This document shows, one piece after another, positions 12,418-51,406 of a DNA stretch of 64,000 nt. The position numbers and the translations under genes were made by a program. Source of the stretch: Physcia stellaris (lineage: Eukaryota > Ascomycota > Lecanoromycetes > Caliciales > Physciaceae); contig JABSSW010000001.1 of NCBI GenBank assembly GCA_018902385.1, positions 1,488,001 through 1,552,000 on the forward strand. Reading direction: 5' to 3'. Every line of letters begins with the position of its first letter. Position 1 is the first letter of the stretch. The notes under the pieces are model-generated. The model was not told where the DNA came from. It did no database searches and saw only the letters and a program-made list of their open reading frames with translations.

Positions 12418-13445
12418 AATGCCAAGTCAGCGTAGAATGTCGGCAGACACAGGCCAGGAAACAATGGATGGTGGAGTGCTCGTGTGAAGAATTTAAAGAA
12501 GGCTGGTGACAGAGAGAGTGTGTGTGTGTGCAGGTGGGGTTGTGTTGCCCGAGCGAGGTAGATAGAGGTGAGACAGTCAGGGTCACATGCTGACCGTGCT
12601 TGCGAAGTTACACAGAAACGCCTTGCGTCGGGCAGGAAGCGGCAGAGTTTCTTCGAGCCATGGTAGGTGGTGCCGGTGAGATAGTAAGATGGTAACGAAT
12701 TGTGCTCAGACTATATGTAACACCATCCATCGAGTGGTATCTTACTTGCACGAGGAATTACGAGTATTATGCAGACGAATCCTTTTATCGCACACTACCA
12801 GGTACCATCACCAGCCATTTCCATTCGTTCCCGGCTTGGCATCGGCCCGTATCCGCACGGGCCGAGGTCTACTACTAGGCTCTTAGACGACGCCGTAGGC
12901 ATTGAAGGGAGAACCTGCCTTACTCTACTCTATCGCCTTCCTCGTCGCCTTCACCATGTTTAGTTCCAGCGTCTCGACGTCAGTCCTCTCAATGTGTTTA
13001 CTCAGTGCTCGGCTACGCCGACGTGGATCAGGGAGATGTGGAAAGCGGAAACGAAGGCAGCTGCTTACTTCTGAGACAGCCCTTACAGGCTTATCGACGT
13101 TACATTGACAAGCGACATCACTCGACTGGCCTGTCCAGCAGCGTGCCCGATAAGATGGCGGTGAGTGTAATGTCCCGCCGATGGAAGTACTCGGCCGATA
13201 TCTTTCTGCATCAAGTGGGTATCTACAATGCATTATTTTCGTCCTTCGACACGAACTGGCACTTGTAAGAAACTGAGTGGTCCAGCTCGTGACTGGTCAA
13301 AGATTGGATATGATATGAGGCTCGCATCAGTCACCTACAAGTATGATACACACACGAACCCCCAGAATTATCATTTTCCCCTACGGTCAACCTTCGCAAG
13401 GCTCTCTCCGTTCAGAATCAGCCTCTGATAGCCTTCCGACCTGTG
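12418..13445. promoter_or_regulatory. shared divergent promoter region of hydrolase and A-T-TE synthetase
   Basis: About 1 kb between two divergent start codons (12417 minus, 13446 plus). No coding domain seen. A short GT-repeat tract lies near 12518-12530. Co-regulation of the two genes is inferred from the layout only. Confidence 0.45.
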
Positions 13446-16238
13446 ATGGATGTTCACCACCCTACCAATTTGCAACAGCTTTTACGGAGAGCTGCTGCCG
13501 ACCCTCGAGACCGAGGATTAGCAGTCTACCTGCCTGGCGATGTCAAATACGATGCTCGACGGCTGACATACAGTGACCTTCTCCAGCTCGCGACCAAATA
13601 TGCACCTATGATCCAGAAGCTTTCCAATTTTCAGCCTGAAACCATATTTTTGTTGCATCTCGACAACCATCTCGATGGCATCTTATGGTTTTGGTCCGTA
13701 GTTATCGCTGGTCATGTTCCAGCGGTGTCTACGCCGTTGACCAACGATACCGACCAACGCCGTAAGCATCTGCTGCATCTGAAGAAGCTTTTTCACGATC
13801 CTATAATCGTCACCCAGAGCCACCTCGTCTCAGACTTTGCAGTCTTGCACGATGATCTCAACATTGAGACGATCGAGGCTCTCCAGAATCAAGTTTCTCA
13901 ACAGGCCCTTCGTGAGACGACTTGCAAATCGGTGGACGATCTTGCAGTGCTCATGCTTACCTCCGGTAGCACGGGGAATGCCAAGGCCGTAGAACTTCGC
14001 CATGGCCAGCTGATCAAAGCAGTGAATGGCAAATCATTGTATCACGAGACAACTCATGACGATACCTTCCTTAATTGGATAGCCCTCGATCATGTAGCCT
14101 GTCTGACTGAAGTCCATCTACATGCCATGGCCCTCATCGCCGATCAGGTGCATGTCAGCGCCGTTGATATGCTCTCCAGTCCATGGACATTCCTTGAGCT
14201 CATCGATAGACATAAGATCAACTATACTTTTGCGCCGAATTTCTTCTTGGCCAGCCTCAACAAAACCCGAGAGCGGAAAGCTCACGAGCGTTCGGATTTC
14301 ACCCTCCGGCTAGATCTTAGCACCTTACGTGCTCTAATCTCTGGGGGCGAAGCCAATGTCACCGAGACATGCAAGGCTGTAACTCAATTATTGCAGCAGT
14401 ACGGTGCGCCTGCCAATTGTATTCGGCCTGGGTTTGGCATGACTGAAACCTGTGCTGGATCTATCTATAACAAGAACTGCCCTTCCTACGATCTTAACAA
14501 GGGACTTGAGTTCGCGTCTTTGGGTTCCGCAATACCTGGCCTCAACTTCAGAGTGGTCGGAGATGACGGAGACCTGATGAAGGCTAATCAGCTTGGTAAT
14601 CTCGAAGTCTCTGGACCTATCCTCTTCAAGGCGTATTATAACAACGATCAAGCTACCAAGGATGCTTTCGGTGATGATGGCTGGTTCAAGACTGGTGACA
14701 GGGCGTATGTTGACAAGGCCGGATACCTGAACCTGTCGGGCAGAGCCAAAGAGAGCATCATCATAAACGGGGTAAAATACTTCCCACACGAAGTTGAAAC
14801 GGCAATTGAGGAAGCTGGCACACGCGGAGCCACACCATCTTTTACCGTCGCTTTCGCTCACAGACCCCAGGGCTTTCCGACGGAGGTTCTTTGCATAGTC
14901 TATCTGCCGACATATGCTGAGGATGACTCGGCTTCGAGGCTCGAGACTCGCAATGCGATACTTGAAGTAGCTGTGCGCTATTGCGGGGCTCGACCATACC
15001 GAATTCTTCCTTTGAGCAAAGAAGCTTTTCCAAAATCGTCCCTCGGGAAACTATCCCGCGCAAAGTTCCGGACTGCTTTCGAAAGTGGGGCCTATGCGGC
15101 GTATGAGAAGATCGATAGTGCATACCTCCAGAGCTTACAACAAGTACGAAATCAACAGCCAAATACCAAGACCGAGTCTCTAATTCTGGACGTTGCCTCC
15201 AACGTGCTGGAGGTAGACAAACACGAGGTAGGTGTGAATACGAGCCTTTTTGAGCTTGGAGTCAGTTCTGTGGAGATTTTGAGTCTTAAGACTGCAATGG
15301 AACATGCATTGCATCTCGACAAACCCATCGAGATATCTACCATCATGGCAAATCCGACTATTCGGGGTTTGGCAAAGAGTATTGAAAGGCCAGGCAAGAA
15401 GCCTTACAGACCCACGGTCACTTTGTCCAGCGAGGGTGATAAAGTACCACTTTGGCTTGTGCATCCTGGTGTCGGGGAAATCTTGATCTTCCTACGTTTG
15501 GCTAGATTCTTGACAGATCGCCCAGTGCACGCCCTTCGAGCTAGAGGTTTTGACGGGGAACCTTTCTTTCAAAGCCTGGAAGAGTGTGTGACTACCTATT
15601 ATGATGATATCAAGAGGGTCCAGCCGAAAGGTCCTTACGCGATACTCGGATATTCCTATGGCGCAGCGCTTACTTTTGAGCTGATGAAGCGACTGGAGCA
15701 CAGCGGTGACGTCGTCAAGTTCTGCGGCTTGATAGACCAGCCACCATACATCCAGGAACGTATGCATATGAGTAATTTCGCCAGCGTTGTGCTTACGCTG
15801 GCATGCTTCGTAGAGATAGTGACCCACGAGCAGTCACAAACGCTTCGAGCTCAGCTATCGGGACTGGCCAGAGACGATGTTCTCGATCGTGTACTCTCCC
15901 TGACAACGCGAGGACACTTGGAAAAGTTCGCGCTCGATAAACCGAAGCTAGCCAATTGGGCCGATCTGGCCTTGAACAATCACCATGTGGCCCGTACTTA
16001 CCGTCCCGAGGGAGAAGTTTCCAAAATGGATGTCTTCTATGGAGAAGTCCCAGTAGCTTTTTACGCCAAAAACGGGGCAGAGATGAAAGAAAAGCATCTC
16101 AAGCAATGGCAGGGCTTTGTTACCACCGAAGTGGAATTTCATCCGGTACGCGGCACCCATGATGACATTCTTCAGGCAGAGCATGTTGGATCCTTCTACA
16201 AGTCGCTCAAGACTGCCATGAGTCATCGTGAGGTCTAG
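13446..16238 (+). CDS. NRPS-like A-T-TE synthetase, 2-oxo-acid-activating type
   Basis: Intronless, 930 aa. Start is the ATG at 13446, one codon after an in-frame GTG. Order: adenylation domain (A3-type motif LTSGSTGNAKA near residue 170; FGMTETCAG; TGDRAYVDKAGYLNLSGR), thiolation domain (ELGVSSVE near residue 606, with the phosphopantetheine Ser), and thioesterase (PLWLVHPGVGE; nucleophile GYSYG near 734; His in RGTHDD near 903). There is no condensation domain. The motif ALDHVACLTEVHLHAM strongly resembles the AtrA/TdiA/MicA group, which activate aromatic 2-oxo acids such as phenylpyruvate or 4-hydroxyphenylpyruvate and dimerise them to quinones, furanones or dioxolanones. The exact product cannot be read from sequence. 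The frame is fully open, unlike its three neighbours. Confidence 0.92.
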   Translation: MDVHHPTNLQQLLRRAAADPRDRGLAVYLPGDVKYDARRLTYSDLLQLATKYAPMIQKLSNFQPETIFLLHLDNHLDGILWFWSVVIAGHVPAVSTPLTNDTDQRRKHLLHLKKLFHDPIIVTQSHLVSDFAVLHDDLNIETIEALQNQVSQQALRETTCKSVDDLAVLMLTSGSTGNAKAVELRHGQLIKAVNGKSLYHETTHDDTFLNWIALDHVACLTEVHLHAMALIADQVHVSAVDMLSSPWTFLELIDRHKINYTFAPNFFLASLNKTRERKAHERSDFTLRLDLSTLRALISGGEANVTETCKAVTQLLQQYGAPANCIRPGFGMTETCAGSIYNKNCPSYDLNKGLEFASLGSAIPGLNFRVVGDDGDLMKANQLGNLEVSGPILFKAYYNNDQATKDAFGDDGWFKTGDRAYVDKAGYLNLSGRAKESIIINGVKYFPHEVETAIEEAGTRGATPSFTVAFAHRPQGFPTEVLCIVYLPTYAEDDSASRLETRNAILEVAVRYCGARPYRILPLSKEAFPKSSLGKLSRAKFRTAFESGAYAAYEKIDSAYLQSLQQVRNQQPNTKTESLILDVASNVLEVDKHEVGVNTSLFELGVSSVEILSLKTAMEHALHLDKPIEISTIMANPTIRGLAKSIERPGKKPYRPTVTLSSEGDKVPLWLVHPGVGEILIFLRLARFLTDRPVHALRARGFDGEPFFQSLEECVTTYYDDIKRVQPKGPYAILGYSYGAALTFELMKRLEHSGDVVKFCGLIDQPPYIQERMHMSNFASVVLTLACFVEIVTHEQSQTLRAQLSGLARDDVLDRVLSLTTRGHLEKFALDKPKLANWADLALNNHHVARTYRPEGEVSKMDVFYGEVPVAFYAKNGAEMKEKHLKQWQGFVTTEVEFHPVRGTHDDILQAEHVGSFYKSLKTAMSHREV

Positions 16239-39054: not shown

Positions 39055-40850
39055 GATATAGTCGCTCATTTCCATTCGAGTGCCCCGCGATATATCACCT
39101 TAAATCATTTATTGCGCCGCGAAGCAGCATTCCAAACGTTGTTGGAGATTCCGAAATGGTGGATTCGCGTTGTATATACCATAGTCACATGTACATTTAG
39201 TAACATACTCCAATCTCTCAAGTCATCGGAAAAGTCACTGTACAGTACTGACCACACCCGAAGCTTTTGAAGCAGTGATCGTGAAGGAATGGCCAGAAGA
39301 TACACGGTCGAAGAGAATAGCTTCTGTTTCACTGTCCGGCGTCCAAAATACGTTCACTGGCCATTCCCGATCCACTTTGAATTACCTAGTGGATCACTCC
39401 ATCAACACCTGGCCCATCACAGGTCCAGACGCTGTATGTCGTACAACGGGGTGAACGCTGCGTGGGGCTAGTCACCGAGACCATACAGCCTGCCGCCAGG
39501 GCCAGTATATATAAATGCGCATACATCCCCGTCTCCAGTCATAAACCCAAACTATCCCAAAGAAAGCTCAAAACCACCAGTCGTTCACCGAATTCAAGTG
39601 CCCTTCCGAATCAAAACACACACTCACCCCACTCCACACACACCCAGGTTTCCGATATCCCGCAATGTCTCCGGCTCCCGATCCCGCATCCGCGCTTGGG
39701 GAGCGAGGGCATCTCCACCCCGGCAGCGCCGGTGAAACAAACCCAACAACCCGCGCCCGCGGCACCAGCAGCAACATCATCATCTTCGACCCCTCCACCT
39801 TTAAACTCTCGCTCAGGAAGCGCGCGGATACAGACAGTAAGTCGCCCCCCCTTCTCACCACCCATAATCACTAACCCATACGCCGTGCCAGCATCCCGCG
39901 CCATCAAAATAATCCCCATCACTCACAGGCTGGATAGCCATGTGGATGTCTACATGGATCGCTACCCGGGCGAGAATATGAGTGAGCGGCTTGTGGCCGT
40001 TTTGAATCTTGGGCGCTTGGGATGGGGAGTCAGGGTGAGGAGGTGGAGTGGAGGGTTGAGGGAGGTTTATCTTTTGGTGGTTAAGGAGGGGGAGATGGGG
40101 GGATGGGGGAGTCAGGGTGAGGAGGTGGAGTGGGGGTTGAGGGAGGTTTATGTGCTGGCTGTTAAGGAGGGGGAGAGTGAGGGGGTGGGTGCGGGGGTGG
40201 AGTGGGTGGAGTGGCGGGTTTATGTAGGGGGGCTATTGTATTAATGGTTTTGGGTGCGGAATTTAATACTTGTAGGATGGCTTTGGCGATAATATCAATA
40301 CATTAGAGAGGTTTTGCAGCCCTGTCCCTATAGATTTCACATCAATTGGAGCGGGTCTTGTGTCCACTGTCCCGCTCATAGAATCGGTCTTTAATCGCCT
40401 GCCCGATTCGGTAGGAAATGCGTTAAGTAAGTTAACGCAGGCCTGTTTACCTTACCTCTCACTCCCGATCGGCTCCAAACCTTCCGAATCAGGGAGTTCA
40501 GCGGGTATGAACAGGCTTATGAACAGGGCTGCAAAATCTCCCTGTTGAGCTTGCAAATTTTCGGGTCTGTGAGGTAGCTATTACTAACCCGCCTTTTTTC
40601 TCGCTGGGTTTGACACGAGGTCTGGTAGAGGTGCTGTCATCTGTTGGTATTTCGCTCTTGACGCTTGCCCGACTTGGGACCCGAGTACATGATGATAATG
40701 TGGATCTGCCCAACCGAAACAGATAGCTCAGAAAATACTCGATCCAAAAAAGTGGCAGTAACCATTATTACGCAGATATGTGAAGATGTGTCTCCTTACG
40801 TACTGCCAGTAATAAATCTACGGACATAAGCATCTACCGAAGAGTACTAA
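39055..40850. other. no firmly supported gene
   Basis: A frame opening with an ATG at 39665 (start MSPAPDPASALGER) with a GTAAGT donor near 39838, and a later frame around 39930-40245 (DVYMDRYPGENMSERL), look weakly coding. I could not join them with a consistent phase and know no relative, so I do not call a gene. Confidence 0.35.
40021..40183. repeat. 81-bp tandem duplication, purine-rich
   Basis: The block GATGGGGAGTCAGGGTGAGG begins at 40021 and again (with one more G) at 40102. Both copies continue with GGAGGTGGAGTG, GAGGGAGGTTTAT and GTTAAGGAGGGGGAG. High identity indicates a recent duplication. Confidence 0.8.
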
Positions 40851-40852
40851 TA

Positions 40853-40997
40853 GAAGATGTCACCCGGTAACCGGACAAACGGGGTAACCGGACAATCTAG
40901 GGTTGGCCTCGCAACTTTTTGCCCTAACCCTCGATGAGGCCCGCCAACCCTAGGTTGTCCGGTTACCCCGTTTGTCCGGTTACCGAGTGACACCTTC
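40853..40997. mobile_element. 145-bp foldback/MITE element with TA ends
   Basis: Two arms of about 58-62 bp (40853-40910 and 40936-40997) are inverted copies around a 25-bp loop. Each arm contains GGTAACCGGACAA. The arm ends are flanked by TA on both sides (TA-GAAG and CTTC-TA), as expected for Tc1/mariner-related short elements. The three base substitutions between arms are C/T or G/A at CpC; one arm has four extra bases near the loop. Confidence 0.85.
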
Positions 40998-41000
40998 TAG

Positions 41001-41024
41001 GGGTACTCAAAGCCTCGTTTTTCG
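41001..41024 (+). repeat. left terminal inverted repeat of the Harbinger-like element
   Basis: Inverted match to 51407-51430; the first 16 bases are identical, with one G/T difference at the 17th. Confidence 0.8.
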
Positions 41025-41349
41025 GTCCCATATGGGCCATGTGTACTGCAAACAGGAAATTGAAACATCTCTCTCACACTAATTTTCGTCGCAATTTCGT
41101 ACTACATGACTCACATGATTTGCAAACAAAATCAGACGAATTCGTCTGACTTTATTTGCAGATCGATCTCATATGATTTGCAAATATTAACGTTGAACAC
41201 GAAATACTCGTTTAACGCGTTGTTGTTGTTGTTGTTAATTATATGAATAATTTGACTAATTTAATGTAATAAACATTTCTCTCACACGTTTTTTCTTTTT
41301 TTTGCAAACAACTTGAACGATTCATCGAACTATTCAGCTTGTCAGACAT

Positions 41350-41664
41350 TGTAAGACGTATGGACACCAGAGATGTATAGTGTAACGGGAAATAATATTG
41401 CTCGTAGACTAATAACTGCAGAACTAACTATCTTACAAAAGACTGATTATATACACGTTTTGCTAAATGCAACGTACACATCAATTGTCGCATATGCGCA
41501 AATATCGATGCGCTAATCGTTGTTGCGCTGATTCTATTAATATGACGAAACTGCTTGTTTCATGATATAATCGATTTGATGTTTCGAATTTGCAGAATTT
41601 GAATCTTTGACAATCGGAATGCGATTCGCACTTCTTGCAGACTTTGAACTCTGAATTTTTTACA
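41350..41664 (-). repeat. LTR (3' LTR in element orientation), 315 bp
   Basis: Aligns without gaps to 47587-47901, with 32 differences, all transitions. Confidence 0.95.
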
Positions 41665-42808
41665 CGCGTTTTTTTCTAAGCATCGAAATTTCTTGAGATA
41701 ACAATATCATTTGATTTGAATCATTGTTGAAATTGTAAGCTTGTGTTCATATGCTGTATTCATGAAACTTGAAAAATCGCTGTAATCGCGATTTTCGCAT
41801 TCGAAAATTCTATGATTTGAAAAATCACTGTGATCGTGATCTTCGCATCGAATATTTTATCATTTTATTCGATTTCTAGTCAGTCTGCGTTAAAAATTTG
41901 AAAGTACATCTTTTTGAGTGACTCAGAAAAAGCATGATTTGATGATTTGATTGCTCGTTGCTTTCAGTATCGAGTTTGATTTCGTACAATTCACGATTTC
42001 CGATTTGATGATTGACAACTAATTGAATGACAATGAAATCTGAATTTGAATCAATCATTATCTTTCTATCTTCCTGTTCCGAATACTGAAATCGACGAGT
42101 TGTTCAAAAAAGAAATAATTAAACGCAAAAAACGCCGAATAGACGCGATCGCATTGAATATATCAAATTTCGAAAATTTTCTCGATTTTTTACTTCTATT
42201 TTATCACGATACTCGACGTTCAGTTAAATCGAACAGCAATTTCTGAAAATGTTTCTGACACAGTTCAGTCCTTTATGCGACGTAAATTCTTGACAATAAA
42301 CAGCACAAAATCATTGACGAATTTGTTTTCTAGTCAATGATTTCATCAAAAAAATTGCATTTATTTGACGTCGAATACGACGTCGATTCGACAATTTGCT
42401 GACATCGTTCTTCTTCGAATTTTTTGTGTGAAATTTTCGTATCAGATCTCTCAAATGCTTGATCATCGATATTGACTTTCAGATGCGTTTCTCATAATTT
42501 TCTCAACGAATGAGATAGTAGAGATTTGATTCGTTGTATGACTTTTTCGAAATCTGATTCTTTTTGAAAATTTTATTATTTTCAATTGCTTCAACGTCGT
42601 ACATTTTTTCTGTGATTTCGTTTTTTTCAATGTCAATATTTTTGAGCTGATATGTGAATTCTAGCGAAATTCTTTTTTTTCGTTTAATTTTGACTTCTTC
42701 AAAAAGCGATACATGAAAAACATTGTGAATTCGTCAACGTTTTGATATATTTATACGATAAGCTTGATCTTTTATAGTTTCGAATATCTTGAATGATTCG
42801 AAAAATTT

Positions 42809-43712
42809 TCATTCGAACTTTTTATTACGTTTTGTGCGAATATTTTTGACGTTAAAATTGACGTAATTTTTCACTTTGAATTTTATCGACGTTTTAATTT
42901 TAGCATTTTTGTATTTGATTTGTTGTTTCTGCGCGTGAACTAAATTGATCTTGAATACATTTAGCAGTTTTGTCAAATATTTGACATGTTCGTTGACAGA
43001 CTTTGATTTAGCTTTGAAATTCGCGAAGTTTTCGAATGACATTCTAAAAATGTATTTCTGCATGATTTCGAATGATGACATTTGAATAAATGCATGTTTA
43101 TTGTTGTTGTAAACGAATTTCGTTATGAGTAACAGCTTCATTCAATTGTTTTGTTCGAAATTAATGAACGTTCGAAAATACTGTTTCATGATGTTGTTTT
43201 GTCGTTTTGTTTGATCATCGATCTGCGAATGATATGCTGTGAACAATTTGAGTTTGATCTTGAGTGCGTAACACAACGAATCATGATATTTGAACGTGAA
43301 AATAGAATTTCGATTTGTTGTTATTGACGACGAAAAATCATGAAATTTTATAATTTCACGTATCAAAATCTCGACGAGATTTTTTGCGATCATCGTTTTC
43401 GTGACAGAAATGTAATGTGTCATTTTCGTCAATTTATTCATTACAACGAATATTGAATCGTATATAATTTCGTTTCATGTTTTATTTTCGAATAAATTTG
43501 TCACGAAATTCATTGTAATGTCAATTCATTTGAATTTCGATATTGAAAAAAAAATAACTTTTCATATGATTTGTGACGAAAAATTTTGTTTTTTTTGCAA
43601 ATGACGCATGTTTCGCAATATTTTTTGATTTGTGCACGCATGTTGAAATCATGTTCGATGTTTTTTTGATTATTTCGTTTTTGATTCGATCAATAATATT
43701 TTCGACGTACAA
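42809..43712 (-). pseudogene. integrase relic
   Basis: Recognisable integrase-core blocks: NKLTKMTHYISV, a changed catalytic TTNRNSIF (normally S-D-R-G), AYHSQIDDQTKRQN and FVYNNNKHAFIQMSSFEIM. The zinc-finger part upstream is very eroded. Confidence 0.78.
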
Positions 43713-44055
43713 ATTTCAAAATGCGTTTCACATCGAAGTGTTCGATCAAAAAATTGTCATGATTTGCACTAATGACGTTTTTTTTCAGACTCGACGAAAC
43801 GTACAAACAATTTTCGTGTCATAATACTTTATTTTCGTCATGTCAATGTCGAAATGATGTATCAAAAATAACTAATTTCTGTCTCATTTGAATCGCGCAT
43901 GAATTTTCTTTCAACAATGATCGAATTCGATCGACAATGATGTCAATCGTTTCATTATCGCATTTATACGCTGTATCATGCTTTTGAATATGTTTTCGCG
44001 CAATCATCGCGAAAATCGACTCGAAAATTGTTGCATTATTCAACATGAAAATCTT

Positions 44056-44948
44056 TCATTCGTCAACGATCACGTTTGATGCACTGTCGATGATAACGAA
44101 ATCGTCGATTTCGCACGTTGTTCGTTCGATGAAATTCGAGTTCGCAATTTTTCTTTGAATTGATTTTTGCATTGTTGTTTGAATCGCATCGATGCACGCA
44201 CGAAATTCGTTTGAATTCGTTTGCAAAAATTTTCGTAATTGTGTCAATATCTGACGATTATTTTCGATTTCATTTTCATTGATTTTCATATGATCAAATC
44301 GTCGAAACAAGTCGTTCGCAAGATTCTTGTTGCCAAATCGATAATCGATGACGAAATTATAACGAAACAACTTCTGAATTCATCGCATTTGCCGAGATGT
44401 AAACTTTGTAATTAACATGAAGCGACTGAAATTTCGATGATTCGTCAAAATTAAAATTTGCTTTTTGATTTTCTCAAAATAATGACGTCATTGTTTGAAA
44501 ACGAAAACAATTGTCAAAAGTTTTTTATCGTGAATTTCGTAGTTGCATTCGATCGAAATCATCTTTCGCGAGAAATAAATTACAGAATGTCAATGATTTT
44601 CGTCGTCTGATTGACTGAGAATATCATCGATGATTTTGTCGAAAACGTCGATTTTCACACGAATAAATTTAGTCGAGTCGAAATGTCGCAAAATGAAAAT
44701 CATTCAAAACGTCTTTCGCAGTCGTTTAAAGAATTCGTAAATCTCGAAAATCAAAAACTGTTTGACACACGTTTTCTGTTTCGATTTCTATTTCGATTTC
44801 TGTTTGCAGATCGTTTGCGTTTGACGTTTTTTTGTGAAATTTTGCTGATTTTTAGCATCGAGATTAAAGATAATGTCAACTTACTAAAATTTCGAATGAA
44901 ACGTCTGTAGAAATTACACAAATTCAGAAAGTTTTGAATTTTCGACAC
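44056..44948 (-). pseudogene. RT thumb/RNase H relic
   Basis: The segment at 44751-44948 contains NLCNFYRRFIRNFSKLT, the end of gypsy RT. The segment at 44056-44370 begins with a form of the RNase H end motif DYRFGNKNLANDLFRR. Stops separate the two. Confidence 0.7.
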
Positions 44949-45308
44949 GTTTCGCGATGCAAATCAATTTTGTATCGTTTTTATTTTGTTTTTTTGCATT
45001 TGCACACTCTTCGGAAAAACGACGAAATTCAAAAAATCGATGTTGTTTGTGAATCATTTGCTCTTTTCGTTGTTGATGAAAAGCTTGTTTTTTTTCAAAC
45101 GTTGTAAAATTCATTTGACGTTCTCAATGTGTTGCTCGCGATTCATAGAATATATGACGATATCGTTCAGATATACTATAACGCAGAAATCGAATCGTTT
45201 CGTCAGAATCTTATTGACGAAGCTCTGAAACGTTGCAAATGCATTAGTGAAATCAAAAAATAAAACGATATATTCAAAATGTTCATAACGAGTTCGAAAC
45301 GCTGTTTT

Positions 45309-45890
45309 TCACTCATCATTTTTTTTGATACGAAATCTATTGTATGCTGCGATCATATCAAGATTTGTATAAATGCGAATTTTGTTCAGACGGTTTAAAC
45401 TTTCATCGATCAACGATAAAAAATATCTGTTTTTGATAGTTAACAGATTCAAATTTTTGTAATTCACGCACAATCGTAAATTTTCGTTTTTCTTTTTAAC
45501 GAATAGAATCGAAATTTCGATTGCGAAAATAAATGATTTGATAAAGTCATTTTTCAAATGCTTGTCAAAATAAATTCTCAATATCGTTAGTTCATTTTCA
45601 GATAGAAAATAAATAAATTCATAAAATGATTTCTTGTTCGATTTCAGATTTATTAAATGATCGTCAAATTCATGTGCAAACAATTCGTAAGTTTTTTTTT
45701 CGTCAGTGATCTTTGCGAATTTTTTCAAAATTTCGGATATGATGATCTTGATATCTGATTTTTTTTCTATTTTCATTAAAATTGAATTTATTTGAACTCG
45801 TCGCTCGATATATATTTCATTCAAATCGATTTTTTTGTCATGAAATGTTCGTACGAACATGACGAAAATTTCATTCTTGTTGTCAATCAC
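45309..45890 (-). pseudogene. reverse transcriptase relic
   Basis: Recognisable RT blocks in order: SILFVKKKNENLRLCVNY, then LNLLTIKNRYFLSLIDE, then YTNLDMIAAYNRFRI (the last covers the first catalytic Asp block). Further RT sequence is broken by stops downstream on the minus strand. Confidence 0.8.
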
Positions 45891-46043
45891 ATCGTTGACT
45901 AGTTTTTTCGATTCGATTTTCTCGATACGATTTATGATGAAAAAAAAATTTTCGATCGATAGCTGTCAAGATCGAATTTTGTTTGCAATTCAATTCATTT
46001 TTGCTTTCGATAATTTGAATCATGAAAAATTCAGCGATATATT

Positions 46044-46508
46044 TCAAAGTAAATCGACTTTTAGAAAGCTTTCGTTGAAAAAACGATTCACATCGTTTTC
46101 GTTCGAAACTTTTAGTCGTACGAAATATACATCATAAATTTTGAGCTGATTGTTATCTAGAGTCATGATTTCGCAAAAAAAAACGTCGAACAAAATTAGT
46201 TTAAATTTTTTAACAAAAACGTTACTTATCAAACTAATTTCTGTTTTTGAATTCATGATCGCAAAAATCTCGTTGTCATTGATCTTGATTTTAATTTTAT
46301 CGCATTTAATCGTGCGAAGCTTTTTTCGACGACGTTTGACAAAAATTTTGCTGAAACTCGTCAACGAGAATTCGTCACTGTTACTATTGTTTGTTAAAAA
46401 GTTTTTCATTATATCAACTTGCTCGAAGATAATCAAGTCGCTTAGTTTTTTGTCTGTAAATCGAAAACTATTTTTTTTGAATGTATTTTCGACTTCTTGT
46501 TTTTGCAA
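46044..46508 (-). pseudogene. retropepsin relic of the gypsy element
   Basis: The stretch AIMNSKTEISLIS stands where the protease has D-S-G-x-x-x-x-x-I; the catalytic Asp is Asn and the Gly is Lys. Both changes are G to A in a GG or GA context, agreeing with the mutational bias of the island. Confidence 0.7.
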
Positions 46509-46594
46509 TCGTTGTTAAAATTGCAATTTGATTTATCGCAATTTCTGCACTTGTTTTTATCGACGATATTTTTATATTCGTTTTTCGTTCAACG

Positions 46595-47080
46595 TCATAG
46601 TTTGTTCTTGATTGACTTTTGATTAAAATTATTGAATTTGAATTTCTTATCATTTTCACTGTTGTTATTGTTGTTTGTTTTGTTTTTTTTGTTGAACTGT
46701 TTTTCATTGTTGATAAAATTCTCATCATTTCGTTTGCGCTTGTTTGAGTCATCGTGAATATAATTTTCGATGATTTTCTGCTTGTTGTGTAAACTATCTT
46801 GATAATCAGCGTTCTCGATTTTCTTGAAACGATTCAAAATTTCGATTTTAGTATGCATATCACGTTTTTTTGCAAAAAAACGTTTGTGTTTCGATAGCAA
46901 TTCTCGAACGAAATTCTGCAGTTTTTTTTTGTTGTTGAATTTCAGATTCGAAATGAATTGTGTCATTAAAGAAATTCGATGAACATCATAGTTCATGATT
47001 GATTGTTTAGCATGTTGTTTATAATTCAAATATTTATCATAAATGTTTTTCATTCTAGTAAATGCTTTTTGAACGTTCAA
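46595..47080 (-). pseudogene. gag relic of the gypsy element
   Basis: A Lys/Asn-rich frame with gag-like helices (MNYDVHRISLMTQFISNL) followed by a basic, Asn-rich tail. No intact CCHC knuckle is visible; cysteines may have been lost by mutation. Position just inside the 5' LTR fits gag. Confidence 0.6.
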
Positions 47081-47586
47081 TTTCAGAAACTTTTTATAGT
47101 CGATTCAAATACGCTTTTTATTCGAATTCGCAGTGATTTCTGTTTCTCATAACATATGTGAATGTGTCTTTTTTTTCAAAAAGATTTCGACATACACGAA
47201 TTTGACGTCGTTCGAATTCATTGCAAAACGATCGCATTGATTGATTTTGAATTGACTTTTCATGAATTTGATGTAAAACATTCATTCGACATAGAATTTC
47301 TCAATATAGAACGCAAACGTTTGCTCGATGATTTTGATGTGATAAAATTTGTCATTGCGAGAAGTTGTTGAAGCAGAGAAAGATTGCATCGTGATTTGAA
47401 TACGTTTAATGACTAAATTCATTTGTTGTCGATTATAAATTTTTCATTCGATTTGATTTGCTGTTCGGTCAAATTTTGACAAAACGTTTTCGCTGTCGAA
47501 CAAAAAAGAAAAAATACGTGAAATCATGAATGATATTTAACTTATACACGAATGATGTTAATCGTGAGTTATTGTAGTTATTAGAA

Positions 47587-47901
47587 TGTAAAACGTATGA
47601 ACATCAAAGATGTATAGTGTAGCGAAAAATAGTATTGCTCGTAAATTAATAATTGCAAAATTAATTATTTTACAAAAAATTGATTATATACACGTTTTGC
47701 TAAATGCAACGTACACATCAACTGTCGCATATGCGCAAATATCGATGCGTTAATCGCTGTTGCGCTGATTCTATTAATATGACGAAATTGCTTGTTTCAT
47801 GATATAATCGATTTGATGTTTCGAATTTGCAAAATCTGAATTCTTGACAATCGAAATGCGATTCGCACTTTTTGCAGATTTTGAATCTTGAGTTTTTTAC
47901 A
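47587..47901 (-). repeat. LTR (5' LTR in element orientation), 315 bp
   Basis: Partner of 41350-41664; same length, TG..CA ends, about 90% identity. Confidence 0.95.
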
Positions 47902-47949
47902 AACATTTGTTGTATCAAATCGTACGTTTTTTGCTCACGATGTCTCGCA

Positions 47950-49300
47950 ACAAAAAATTCAATCAAACAACGATTGAAATCGTCGAATCTCAATTTACTC
48001 AAAATCGTATCAAACGATTTTCGAAAATCGTGATTTCTATTGTTGAGTGATTCAATCGACGAAATTTCAAAACTGATCGATGCGATAATGTCAATTATTA
48101 TTTGAAGAAAATCAAAATAAAAAATGCGAAACGATGCTTCGATGAATTGAATTTGAAAATCGTATTTTCTGAAATCATTTCGCAGAAGCTCGTTGAAAAG
48201 CTTGCTCATATGATGAATATGTTCAAAAATCAAAAAAACAAAGTCGATTTCACGAATTGAAATATTGATTTTGATGATCATAATCAGTCATCGCAAAATC
48301 AAAAACATATTGTTGAAACGTTTATCATTAAATCAATCATTTTAAATAAAATTTCTTGATATTACGAATTCGAAAAAATCATGAATGAAAAATCGAACGT
48401 CATTTCGATTTTTTTTTTGAATTTGAACAATCGAATCGACGAAATTTCAAATTCGTTGATTCAAACGATGAAACAATCGAAAAAAACAACGACAACGATA
48501 TCGAGAACGACGTCGTTGATGATATCGATAAGAAATTGACTTGAAATTTTATTCAATCAAAAAAAAATTCTGTTTCGATCGCAATATCTGACGAAATCGA
48601 TGAAAAAATCAACATCGAAATGCAAATGAAAATTCGAATTGAGCGCGAAATTCAAACGAAAATTCAAAAATTGATTGTTCGTTTCGAATTCAACGATGCG
48701 CAATTGACAAAAAACGTGAATGAAAACTCTATTAATTCTCACGATTTAATTCACGATAGCTTTTCTTTTTTTGTTGCTCAAACATTTGTATTCAAAACGA
48801 CGAAACTCGCAAAGAACGTCGTCATCTCAATCGTCAAAGTCGAATTCTCGAAATTCTCTGTTCTCGTCAAAATCTCTGTTTCAGCTTTTGTCGCTGTTTC
48901 TGCATCGAGCAAAATTTCTGTCAAAATTTTTACTCAAGCGAAATTCTTCAAGAAATTCAAAAAACGCATCAAGAAAACATACGAGATTGAAAACGACAAC
49001 GAGCAAAAGCGCAACAAAAAAAAAACAAAATTCAATCAAAATCACGCTCGATCGTCGACGCGTTGATTGAAATCGAAAATAAACGAATCAAACTTGCATT
49101 GATTCAAAGTGAAACGAAATTGCGAAAACGTTAATTGCAATTGAATCGCGAGACGTTTCAACGCGATCGAAAAATCAGAAAACAAAATCAACAACACGAA
49201 AAACGCATGTTTCAAATGCGTATACAATTGATCGCGATGAAAAGCAAAAGAAATGAGAAAAAAAAAAATCTGCATATTTCTTTTTCGATAATCAGAATTT
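47950..49300 (+). pseudogene. possible second ORF of the Harbinger-like element (DNA-binding, coiled-coil)
   Basis: Harbinger elements carry a second gene for a Myb/SANT-like protein. Plus-strand frames here (for example around 48620-49066, Lys/Ser/Glu-rich) are compatible with such a gene after heavy mutation, but no diagnostic Trp residues survive. Weak call, made mainly from position. Confidence 0.3.
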
Positions 49301-50149
49301 GAATGATTATTATTCAATGCAATAAAAAACATCGAAAATTTGCATTGAATTACATAAACGTGTGTTTTTGCTTTTATTGCAAAAATCGAAAAATTGATTC
49401 AGATTGCGAAATTTCAATACAGTTTTTATCGTTGAAATCGATATTTCAATTTGCGAATTACATCGCGTTTCAATCGTTTTAATATTAATAGTTTGCGATT
49501 TTTATACACATAATTAATTATTTTGTTAATTTGATACATTCGAAATTCATCGTTGTCGCTGTACACGTCGTCGTTGTTGTTGTTGATGATTTGATTATGA
49601 TGAATTGCACATTTCTGAAAAACTTTAAGAAATTTTTTAAATTTCGCAATAATTTTATTGTCAAGAAACGTTAAATCTTGTAATGAAACATCATCACTTT
49701 TTTGTTAAAAAAGATTTAAGATTTTTGATGAGAAAAATTTAAAAAACAACGTTAAATGCAACTGTTACACGATTTTTTTTTTTATGTTATTCGATCGCAA
49801 TCGATTTTCGTGAAATTTTCGACATTTTTTCTCTTTCGTTTTTCGCATTAAATCGATTTCAATATCAATTTCAATTCGTTCATTTCTGTAATAAAAACTT
49901 CGAAACATACACTGATTACGTATTTTAGTCAGATTTCGATTTTAAAAAATCGTTGAAATTTTTATTCCGAACACGATATTTTTCAAAATCTTTTTTTTAT
50001 TCAAATCAATACGCGTTTGTTTCGTCTGAATTATCAACAAATTTTCGTCATGTTTTTTTTTTTCTTTTCAGTTCATCAGTCGTTCTCGATGTTTCAAATA
50101 TCGCTCAATGTTAAAAGAATGTTGTGAAAAACGACGCAAACGATGATTC

Positions 50150-50966
50150 ATTGAATCATGTATTCGTATTGTTTTTCGTTGAATAAACAAAAACGAAATT
50201 CGATCAAATTGTTTCAACGATTTTTCAACATATCAAACGCGTGTTCGATATCGATTCGAATGCTCGATAATTTGCGATTGAATTTCTTGTTGACGAATTT
50301 GAAAGCGACAGAATTTTTGTACGAAAAAATAAAATGATCGCAACATGCGTACGCATTGTTTGCAAAAATATATTCGTTATTTGCGAAATACTTCGTGAAT
50401 CGTTTATTGAGTGAAAAAGACGCAAAGATTCGAGCGTCATGTTGAAAATTGAGTCAATCGTTGAGCATGTACGTAAACATCTTGTTGAAATCGCAAATCG
50501 CTAACAAATTCATGACATAACGTTTTTTTCGATTGAAGAAATGTTCGTCGTCGTATTTGTTATCAAATTTTTTATTCAATACAATGTCTGTATCATTCGT
50601 TTTATTTACACAATCAATGAAATTTGCACGCGCGTCATTTTTCATGTTTTCAAATCTTTTTTTGTTGACATTCGATCATTTCACAAATTCGTCTTTCTTT
50701 TTGCAAAAAGCAAACACTATACGTTTCGTACAATTGTGAATATGATTTTCGAATACATCTCATAAAATAGCGCAACTCTGAAAATCATCATCAATTTCGT
50801 GATGATTCAATCGATGCAATGCAATGATCAATTGATGTTTGACAAAGATTTGAACGTTGTTCGTATCGCTGAAATGAAAAACGAAATCGTTTTCAATGAG
50901 ATCAAACATTTGTTTGAAAATTTTTTTATTCATACGCAAAATCTTGCGAAATCGTTTGTCGTTCAA
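50150..50966 (-). pseudogene. DDE_Tnp_4 (PIF/Harbinger) transposase relic
   Basis: Minus-strand fragments keep FRKILRMNKKIFKQMFDLIE (N-terminal conserved helix), EHFFNRKKRYVMNLLAICD (central DDE_Tnp_4 block) and, further on, a frame-broken match to the region after the second Asp. Multiple stops and frame breaks make it inactive. The location next to the right terminal repeat fits the outer element. Confidence 0.65.
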
Positions 50967-51406
50967 CTGAAAAAATATCGTGATGATTCAATTGAATTTC
51001 GATATAACGATGCTTCGAAGCGTCAAATATCGTTGCTCTTTAATGTCGTAATAAAGAGTTAGTTATCGCATTGCAACAAAAAAAATGAAATTTTCAACGA
51101 CAATTGTAATTATAAATTGTCATCAAAAATTTCGACGAAATTTATATTTCTCACTACGACGAGACATGAAAAACAAAATGTTTCGATTTTACAACAACAA
51201 CAACAACGCGTACGTGAATGAAAAGAAAACGAATAAATCGTTTGAATTTGACACGTCAAAAGATTTTTAATGTTGTTACTATACTTCTTATTGACTAGCA
51301 TGACAAAACATACAAAAAATCTGTTTCATGGAGCCCTCACGGCCGAAGAAAGCCATATGAGCCATATGATTCCTTGCAGTACATATGGGACGGAAGTTAA
51401 ATTGCT

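Follow-up and report, generated by a model that had tools for sequence, protein, structure and literature searches.

The stretch of the Physcia stellaris genome analysed here (64,000 nucleotides; hereafter the window) contains a retrotransposon at 41350-47901 on the minus strand, bounded by two 315-bp long terminal repeats (LTRs) at 41350..41664 and 47587..47901. The strand of the element and of both LTRs was taken from the match to the RVT_1 reverse-transcriptase domain (45024..45500, minus strand; C1:1533024-1533500), which carried three in-frame TGA codons and neither TAA nor TAG. A probable 5-bp target-site duplication flanked the LTRs, with GACAT at 41345..41349 and AACAT at 47902..47906. 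Four of its five bases were equal, and the sole difference was an ApG>ApA change, equivalent to one CpT-type transition. A duplication with this kind of difference indicates that the element apparently arrived by one insertion and that its LTRs were identical at the start. The AT-rich island around the element (about 41.0-51.3 kb; 41000..51300) has a GC content of 0.30 and is embedded in GC-rich (0.495) DNA with ordinary genes. The observed/expected (O/E) ratios in the island were 0.06 for CpC, 0.49 for CpT, 1.22 for CpA, 2.6 for CpG and 0.42 for TpA. The subject of this report is the C-to-T mutation that has struck this element at C before a pyrimidine (CpY), a pattern that is itself real, strong and specific.

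The two LTRs aligned without gaps over 315 bp and differed at 32 sites, every one C/T or G/A with no transversion, as a first-pass annotation made from the sequence alone had described. That annotation had placed 27 differences at CpT and 5 at CpC. All of them did fall at CpY, but the split was revised. Classified by the 3' neighbor of the C, 24 were CpT, 4 were CpC and 4 had a neighbor that itself varied between C and T, the discrepancy lying in the assignment of adjacent changes. None was at CpA or CpG, which were as plentiful and identical as had been claimed (45 CpA and 34 CpG unchanged in both copies); 9 CpT and no CpC were unchanged. Thus, 32 of 41 CpY sites had changed, compared to 0 of 79 sites with a purine after the C (CpR; P = 2.6e-21). 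For comparison, 32 other LTR rows were aligned, which represent 31 distinct LTRs since one falls in two overlapping stretches; at 25 of the 32 sites, one or more of these rows kept the C or G state. At the remaining 7 sites no other row had C or G, and C was presumably ancestral there too. Both LTRs were mutated, with 8 of the 32 mutated states in the LTR at 41350..41664 and 24 in that at 47587..47901. C>T and G>A changes were present in each, so that both copies and both strands were affected.

The comparison was extended to the assembly (43,974,083 bases in 147 contigs), presumably a smaller version of the published one. One LTR served as the query; the best 40 of 207 candidate matches were scored, and 20 stretches with LTR copies were taken, making 21 with the window. 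Self-alignment gave 13 LTR pairs, the window pair and 12 others, in which only sites with unchanged neighbors were counted. Under this strict count, CpC had changed at 13/13 sites, CpT at 191/270, CpA at 30/502 and CpG at 7/395. In the window pair and the other pairs with few transversions, the differences were nearly all C:G>T:A; transversions amounted to 0/32 of all differences in the window, 0/21 in L031, 0/20 in L038 and 1/28 in L034. The 5' neighbor of the C had little influence and the 3' neighbor decided. ACT was changed at 56/77 sites (73%), GCT at 31/47 (66%) and TCT at 103/145 (71%), and ACC (4/4), GCC (2/2) and TCC (7/7) were changed throughout. Because the next C was unchanged in both copies at these ACC, GCC and TCC sites, CpC is directly targeted.

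Ultraviolet (UV) light causes C>T at dipyrimidines, so UV damage, or else an APOBEC/AID-like deaminase, was weighed as the source. However, TpCpA (15/177) and TpCpG (2/187) were mostly spared and ApCpT was hit, which neither predicts, and the CpY signature defined below occurred in 0/151 GC-rich windows. UV and 5'-context deaminases were rejected by the trinucleotide table, and the chance that either produced the pattern is negligible.

The same bias was found outside the LTRs. When the internal region of the window copy was compared to ten copies, CpT had changed at 2667/3226 sites, CpC at 83/86, CpA at 1042/5869 and CpG at 892/5420; the CpA and CpG figures contain ordinary divergence, since each comparison held 30 to 423 transversions. 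The closest one (L031, 30 transversions) gave CpT 307/351, CpC 9/9, CpA 72/754 and CpG 21/682. Among other repeats without a match to the element, the 6 of 15 pairs with 80% identity or more gave CpT 98/107, CpA 81/388 and CpG 48/355, with no CpC remaining. The island itself holds a second repeat at 48300..51000, which is likewise CpY-biased when compared to its 92% copy on contig C25 (CpT 113/132, CpC 2/2, CpA 24/337, CpG 11/335). This comparison contained 38 transversions and 23 more transitions beside a varying neighbor, and both copies were mutated (105 and 45 changes).

Base composition was measured in 500-bp windows over the window, L031-L050 and L055-L057. Windows with GC<0.36 were called AT-rich; all 324 of these came from the window and L031-L050, 151 were GC-rich and 3 intermediate. 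The mean GC was 26.5% in the AT-rich windows and 49.5% in GC-rich DNA. The O/E ratios in the AT-rich windows were 0.02 for CpC, 0.30 for CpT, 1.25 for CpA, 3.21 for CpG, 0.44 for TpA and 1.31 for TpT, compared to 0.95, 1.05, 1.09, 0.89, 0.72 and 1.03, respectively, in the GC-rich windows. CpC loss with CpG excess (CpC O/E <0.35 with CpG O/E >1.5), taken as the CpY signature, was present in 320/324 AT-rich and 0/151 GC-rich windows. In the sampled stretches, therefore, the signature was restricted to AT-rich, repeat-bearing DNA and spared GC-rich non-repeat DNA. The fraction C/(C+T) over the 21 stretches was 0-0.03 for YpC (0.45 in the GC-rich reference), 0.01-0.16 for YpT (0.50), 0.41-0.56 for YpA (0.59) and 0.46-0.52 for YpG (0.44). 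CpC and CpT are thus near exhaustion, CpG is kept to the extent seen in GC-rich DNA and CpA is little lost. From the two mean GC values and the published G+C content of 43.32% (46.57 Mb, 184 scaffolds; PMC7513301), we estimate that such islands make up about a quarter of the genome.

Ordinary CpA-type repeat-induced point mutation (RIP) seen late, with CpA exhausted before insertion and only CpT and CpC differences left to arise, could mimic an alignment of this kind. CpT changes overshadow CpA changes in Neurospora Tad1 by RIPCAL (PMC2621366), and alignments of RIP-capable fungi showed CpT>TpT as the main form (PMC7882544), so alignment counts by themselves can mislead in this way. The composition speaks against it. 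In each of the 21 stretches CpA was plentiful (O/E 1.12-1.33) and TpA was scarce (O/E 0.39-0.52), TpA O/E exceeded 1 in 0/324 AT-rich windows, and L049, the most CpT-depleted stretch (CpT O/E 0.04), still had a CpA O/E of 1.25. RIP-positive DNA is recognized by a high product index (TpA/ApT), a low substrate index and a composite index above 0 (PMC7882544). The island gave the opposite (product 0.43, substrate 1.38, composite -0.95), and CpA was not the preferred site. Saturated CpA-type RIP was therefore rejected for the sampled stretches, and its late form is very improbable as the source of the LTR differences.

Passive decay was considered as well; in this case CpY in heterochromatin would be methylated by a DIM-2-like enzyme, and the resulting 5-methylcytosines would deaminate slowly and spontaneously, with no premeiotic burst. 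A DIM-2-like gene is present, the extent of CpT loss varies among stretches, and Neurospora DIM-2 is described in a review as methylating mainly non-CG sites with a preference for CpT (PMC13297926). However, the most completely lost site was CpC rather than CpT. Moreover, 32/41 CpY sites had changed in the window LTRs and 0 at the other 274 positions, for which we estimate that a rate ratio of roughly 130 or more would be required, higher than is usual in passive decay of 5-methylcytosine. Passive decay is accordingly judged improbable.

The mutation left its mark on transposon reading frames. Under CpY targeting, direct nonsense is possible only at TGG (Trp), through GpG>GpA to TGA; conversion of CAA, CAG or CGA to a stop would need CpA or CpG, and TAG is a target itself (ApG>ApA to TAA). 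A whole-assembly search of four families gave 320 matches (RVT_2, 137; DDE_1, 10; RVT_1, the best 150 of 527 candidates; DDE_3, 23) with 742 TGA, 144 TAA and 8 TAG in frame, counts that are not independent because an element was in some cases split over several matches. Island composition already favors TGA, but the excess went beyond the all-frame triplet background of the island (TGA:TAA:TAG, 666:352:94; P = 6e-46), in line with TGG>TGA as the sole direct nonsense route. Only 6 TGG triplets were found in the island, compared to about 382 expected from the rest. The TGA signature was common to LTR-type and DNA-transposon families (DDE_1 and DDE_3). Reverse-transcription or RNA-level editing was rejected, as DDE_1 and DDE_3 have the same TGA excess and the LTR differences post-date insertion. 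Separately, 17 of the 320 matches had no in-frame stop (4, 1, 10 and 2 by family, in the above order), and some copies are seemingly little mutated. The integrase domain PF00665 was excluded from the tally; of its 6 matches, one carried 2 TGA and the other five had no stop. When 7 short island frames were scanned against Pfam, no domain was detected, as expected with broken frames.

Sequencing artefact was a further alternative, in which nanopore reads are miscalled at modified cytosines in repeats. The published assembly of this lichen-forming member of the Physciaceae, made from an axenic ascospore culture, is indeed nanopore-based (Canu/Racon), and it was polished twice by Pilon with Illumina reads, although repeat polishing can be imperfect (PMC7513301). 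Miscalling does not account for a CpC O/E of 0.02 over 324 windows, copy-dependent CpT loss and hundreds of matches with TGA stops, and an artefact is very unlikely. The first-pass annotation had expected a CpT/CpC target beyond one element, to be abandoned if CpA proved mutated as often as CpT or if the bias was missing elsewhere. The 13 LTR pairs, 10 internal comparisons, 6 other-repeat pairs, the second island repeat and the stops of four families all agreed with the expectation, with CpY changed far more than CpA.

Candidate enzymes were sought with PF00145, which gave four matches in three Dnmt1-superfamily genes, on contigs C3, C5 and C6, with no visible damage in the parts read. The C3 gene is DIM-2-like, with an open frame of 1118 aa, N-terminal exons not included, and DUF7893; its best solved relative is 9bap_A, named DNA (cytosine-5-)-methyltransferase. 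Masc1/RID-class genes, as RIP demands, were present in C5 and C6. The C5 gene is RID-like with an EQT triad, has relatives in many lichen fungi, and its protein matched P. stellaris G7Y79_00005g016670 (99% over 95%). The C6 gene (L051; L055:1901-3403) is a second, divergent RID-like gene with EET. Its two in-frame stops are presumably in introns, since they coincide with the stretch skipped by the annotated Heterodermia protein. It fell in an exclusively EET clade (29 tips, support 0.997, stem 0.64) that includes Physcia and Heterodermia. The target-recognition stretch of the C6 type was shortened, with a segment missing in 5/5 rows that reach it; the segment is kept in nearly all other rows reaching it, Saccharata being partly without it and 8 rows stopping short of it.

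The first-pass annotation had suspected a different or modified cytosine-directed machinery, possibly with altered RID target recognition. The CpY bias across copies and families supports the former, RID-like and DIM-2-like genes are both present, and the shorter stretch of the C6 protein is only a candidate cause of the bias. The three genes are almost equally likely candidates for the acting enzyme, none of them more likely than not; the C6 gene ranks very slightly ahead of the EQT gene in C5 and the DIM-2-like gene in C3, which are level. EET is also found in Aspergillus and Penicillium proteins, and Rid of Botrytis cinerea is listed as EET (PMC6709928); the triad as a cause of CpT or CpY targeting may be considered only a lead. 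In view of what is reported for other fungi, mutation driven by DIM-2, with the RID arm silent, would be a serious alternative to a re-specified RID. Zymoseptoria tritici, reported without a complete DIM-2 (PMC7882544), gave 240 CpA and 2 CpT of 242 in direct meiotic counts (PMC10294615), and Neurospora DIM-2 has the CpT preference mentioned above. Purified RID has so far displayed no methyltransferase activity in vitro, according to a review (PMC13297926).

The best explanation is repeat-directed, RIP-type C-to-T mutation on both strands, with CpY as the target and a Dnmt1-superfamily enzyme as the agent, and we hold it to be highly probable. The enzyme class is suggested because it is the 3' base that Dnmt1-superfamily methyltransferases recognize, as opposed to the 5' base recognized by APOBEC-type deaminases. 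Such a cytosine methyltransferase would act before meiosis on duplicated DNA.

Several points weigh against this explanation. CpA was not wholly spared. The earlier statement that no change lies at CpA held for the window, L034 and L038, but the other 10 of the 13 pairs had one or more changes beside A or G. These are not merely the background of old copies, since transversions were few in L031 (5 CpA changes, 0 transversions), L035 (6 CpA changes, 1 transversion) and L041 (1 transversion). CpA was also changed above CpG overall (30/502 vs 7/395, P = 0.002), and YpA dropped slightly as YpT dropped across stretches (Spearman 0.6, P = 0.004). A weak CpA component therefore exists, small beside CpY. 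CpC is partially lost in 41000-41349, before the LTR (10, then 4 per 200 bp), starting about 350 bp out, so that either the process or an older repeat fragment reaches past the element. The premeiotic step on duplicated DNA, like machinery and timing in general, is something that we infer. The data come from a single assembly, and the stretches, being picked for copies of this LTR, are not a random genome sample. A search for HP1 (chromo shadow) gave no match, but its controls were silent too, hence this is not evidence of absence; Pre-SET had one match.

As in Neurospora RIP, C:G>T:A changes affect repeats on both strands, in a genome with RID-like and DIM-2-like genes. However, the order is CpA>CpT>CpG>CpC in N. 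crassa and CpA about equal to CpG, above CpT>CpC, in Trichoderma reesei (PMC5496416), whereas in Physcia CpC is at least equal to CpT, CpA lies far below and CpG is lowest. CpT is predominant or secondary in Magnaporthe oryzae, B. cinerea and Sclerotinia sclerotiorum, which have the RID/Masc1 gene (PMC4352252), and in Anisogramma anomala, which has two rid genes, both CpA and CpT are changed (PMC10998396). The available text on these four fungi describes a CpA signature and reports no CpC target, and the substantial CpA mutation beside CpT that marks the Botrytis/Magnaporthe type was absent from the 13 pairs. Short rDNA repeats of Stagonospora nodorum showed CpT>TpT without CpA>TpA, for which the authors doubted RIP (PMC2621366); unlike in Physcia, the remainder of that genome is dominated by CpA RIP. 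Monilinia has CpC>TpT double changes (PMC8959702), but Monilinia and the RIP-capable controls (PMC7882544) also have CpA>TpA or positive classical indices, in contrast to the retained CpA and depleted TpA in 21/21 Physcia stretches. Transposons of Microbotryum likewise have context-biased C>T at a non-CpA target, namely CpG/TpCpG (PMC4352252), the CpG that is most spared in Physcia.

Among lichen fungi, mutated repeats as in Physcia are described in Endocarpon pusillum, with classical indices of 1.47 and 0.70 (PMC3897900), and in Cladonia rangiformis, which has RID and DIM-2 homologues and an AT-rich, TE-derived local peak at about 16% GC (PMC12542154), compared to the mean of 26.5% in Physcia AT-rich windows. 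CpT changes alone are not new, given the cases above. However, searches of open-access papers found no description of a genome-scale CpY form in which CpC has vanished and TpA is scarce but CpA and CpG persist, and the form is judged a new variant of RIP-type mutation.

Outside the island, an inverted repeat of roughly 167 bp of self-complementary sequence lies just beyond its left edge (40842-41008), and direct repeat copies lie at 40019-40146 and 40100-40228. A single-module NRPS-like enzyme with AMP-binding, phosphopantetheine-binding and thioesterase domains is encoded at 13347-16238.

RIP is usually described as CpA-preferring and surveyed by TpA/CpA indices. In Physcia this preference is nearly reversed, and the standard tests miss it; the island indices were negative despite near-saturated CpY mutation in the sampled stretches. 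It is possible, though tentative, that a lineage of lichen fungi carries RIP reprogrammed to CpY by the divergent second RID-like enzyme with EET and a shortened target-recognition stretch. Coding transposons in such genomes would be inactivated almost only through TGG>TGA, and surveys by TpA/CpA indices would call them RIP-free. P. stellaris offers a natural case for asking which Dnmt1-superfamily enzyme mutates and how the 3' base is read. Furthermore, a defence in which only Trp codons turn directly into stops leaves reading frames unusually open, which is relevant to transposon silencing and to errors of gene calling in genomes of this kind.

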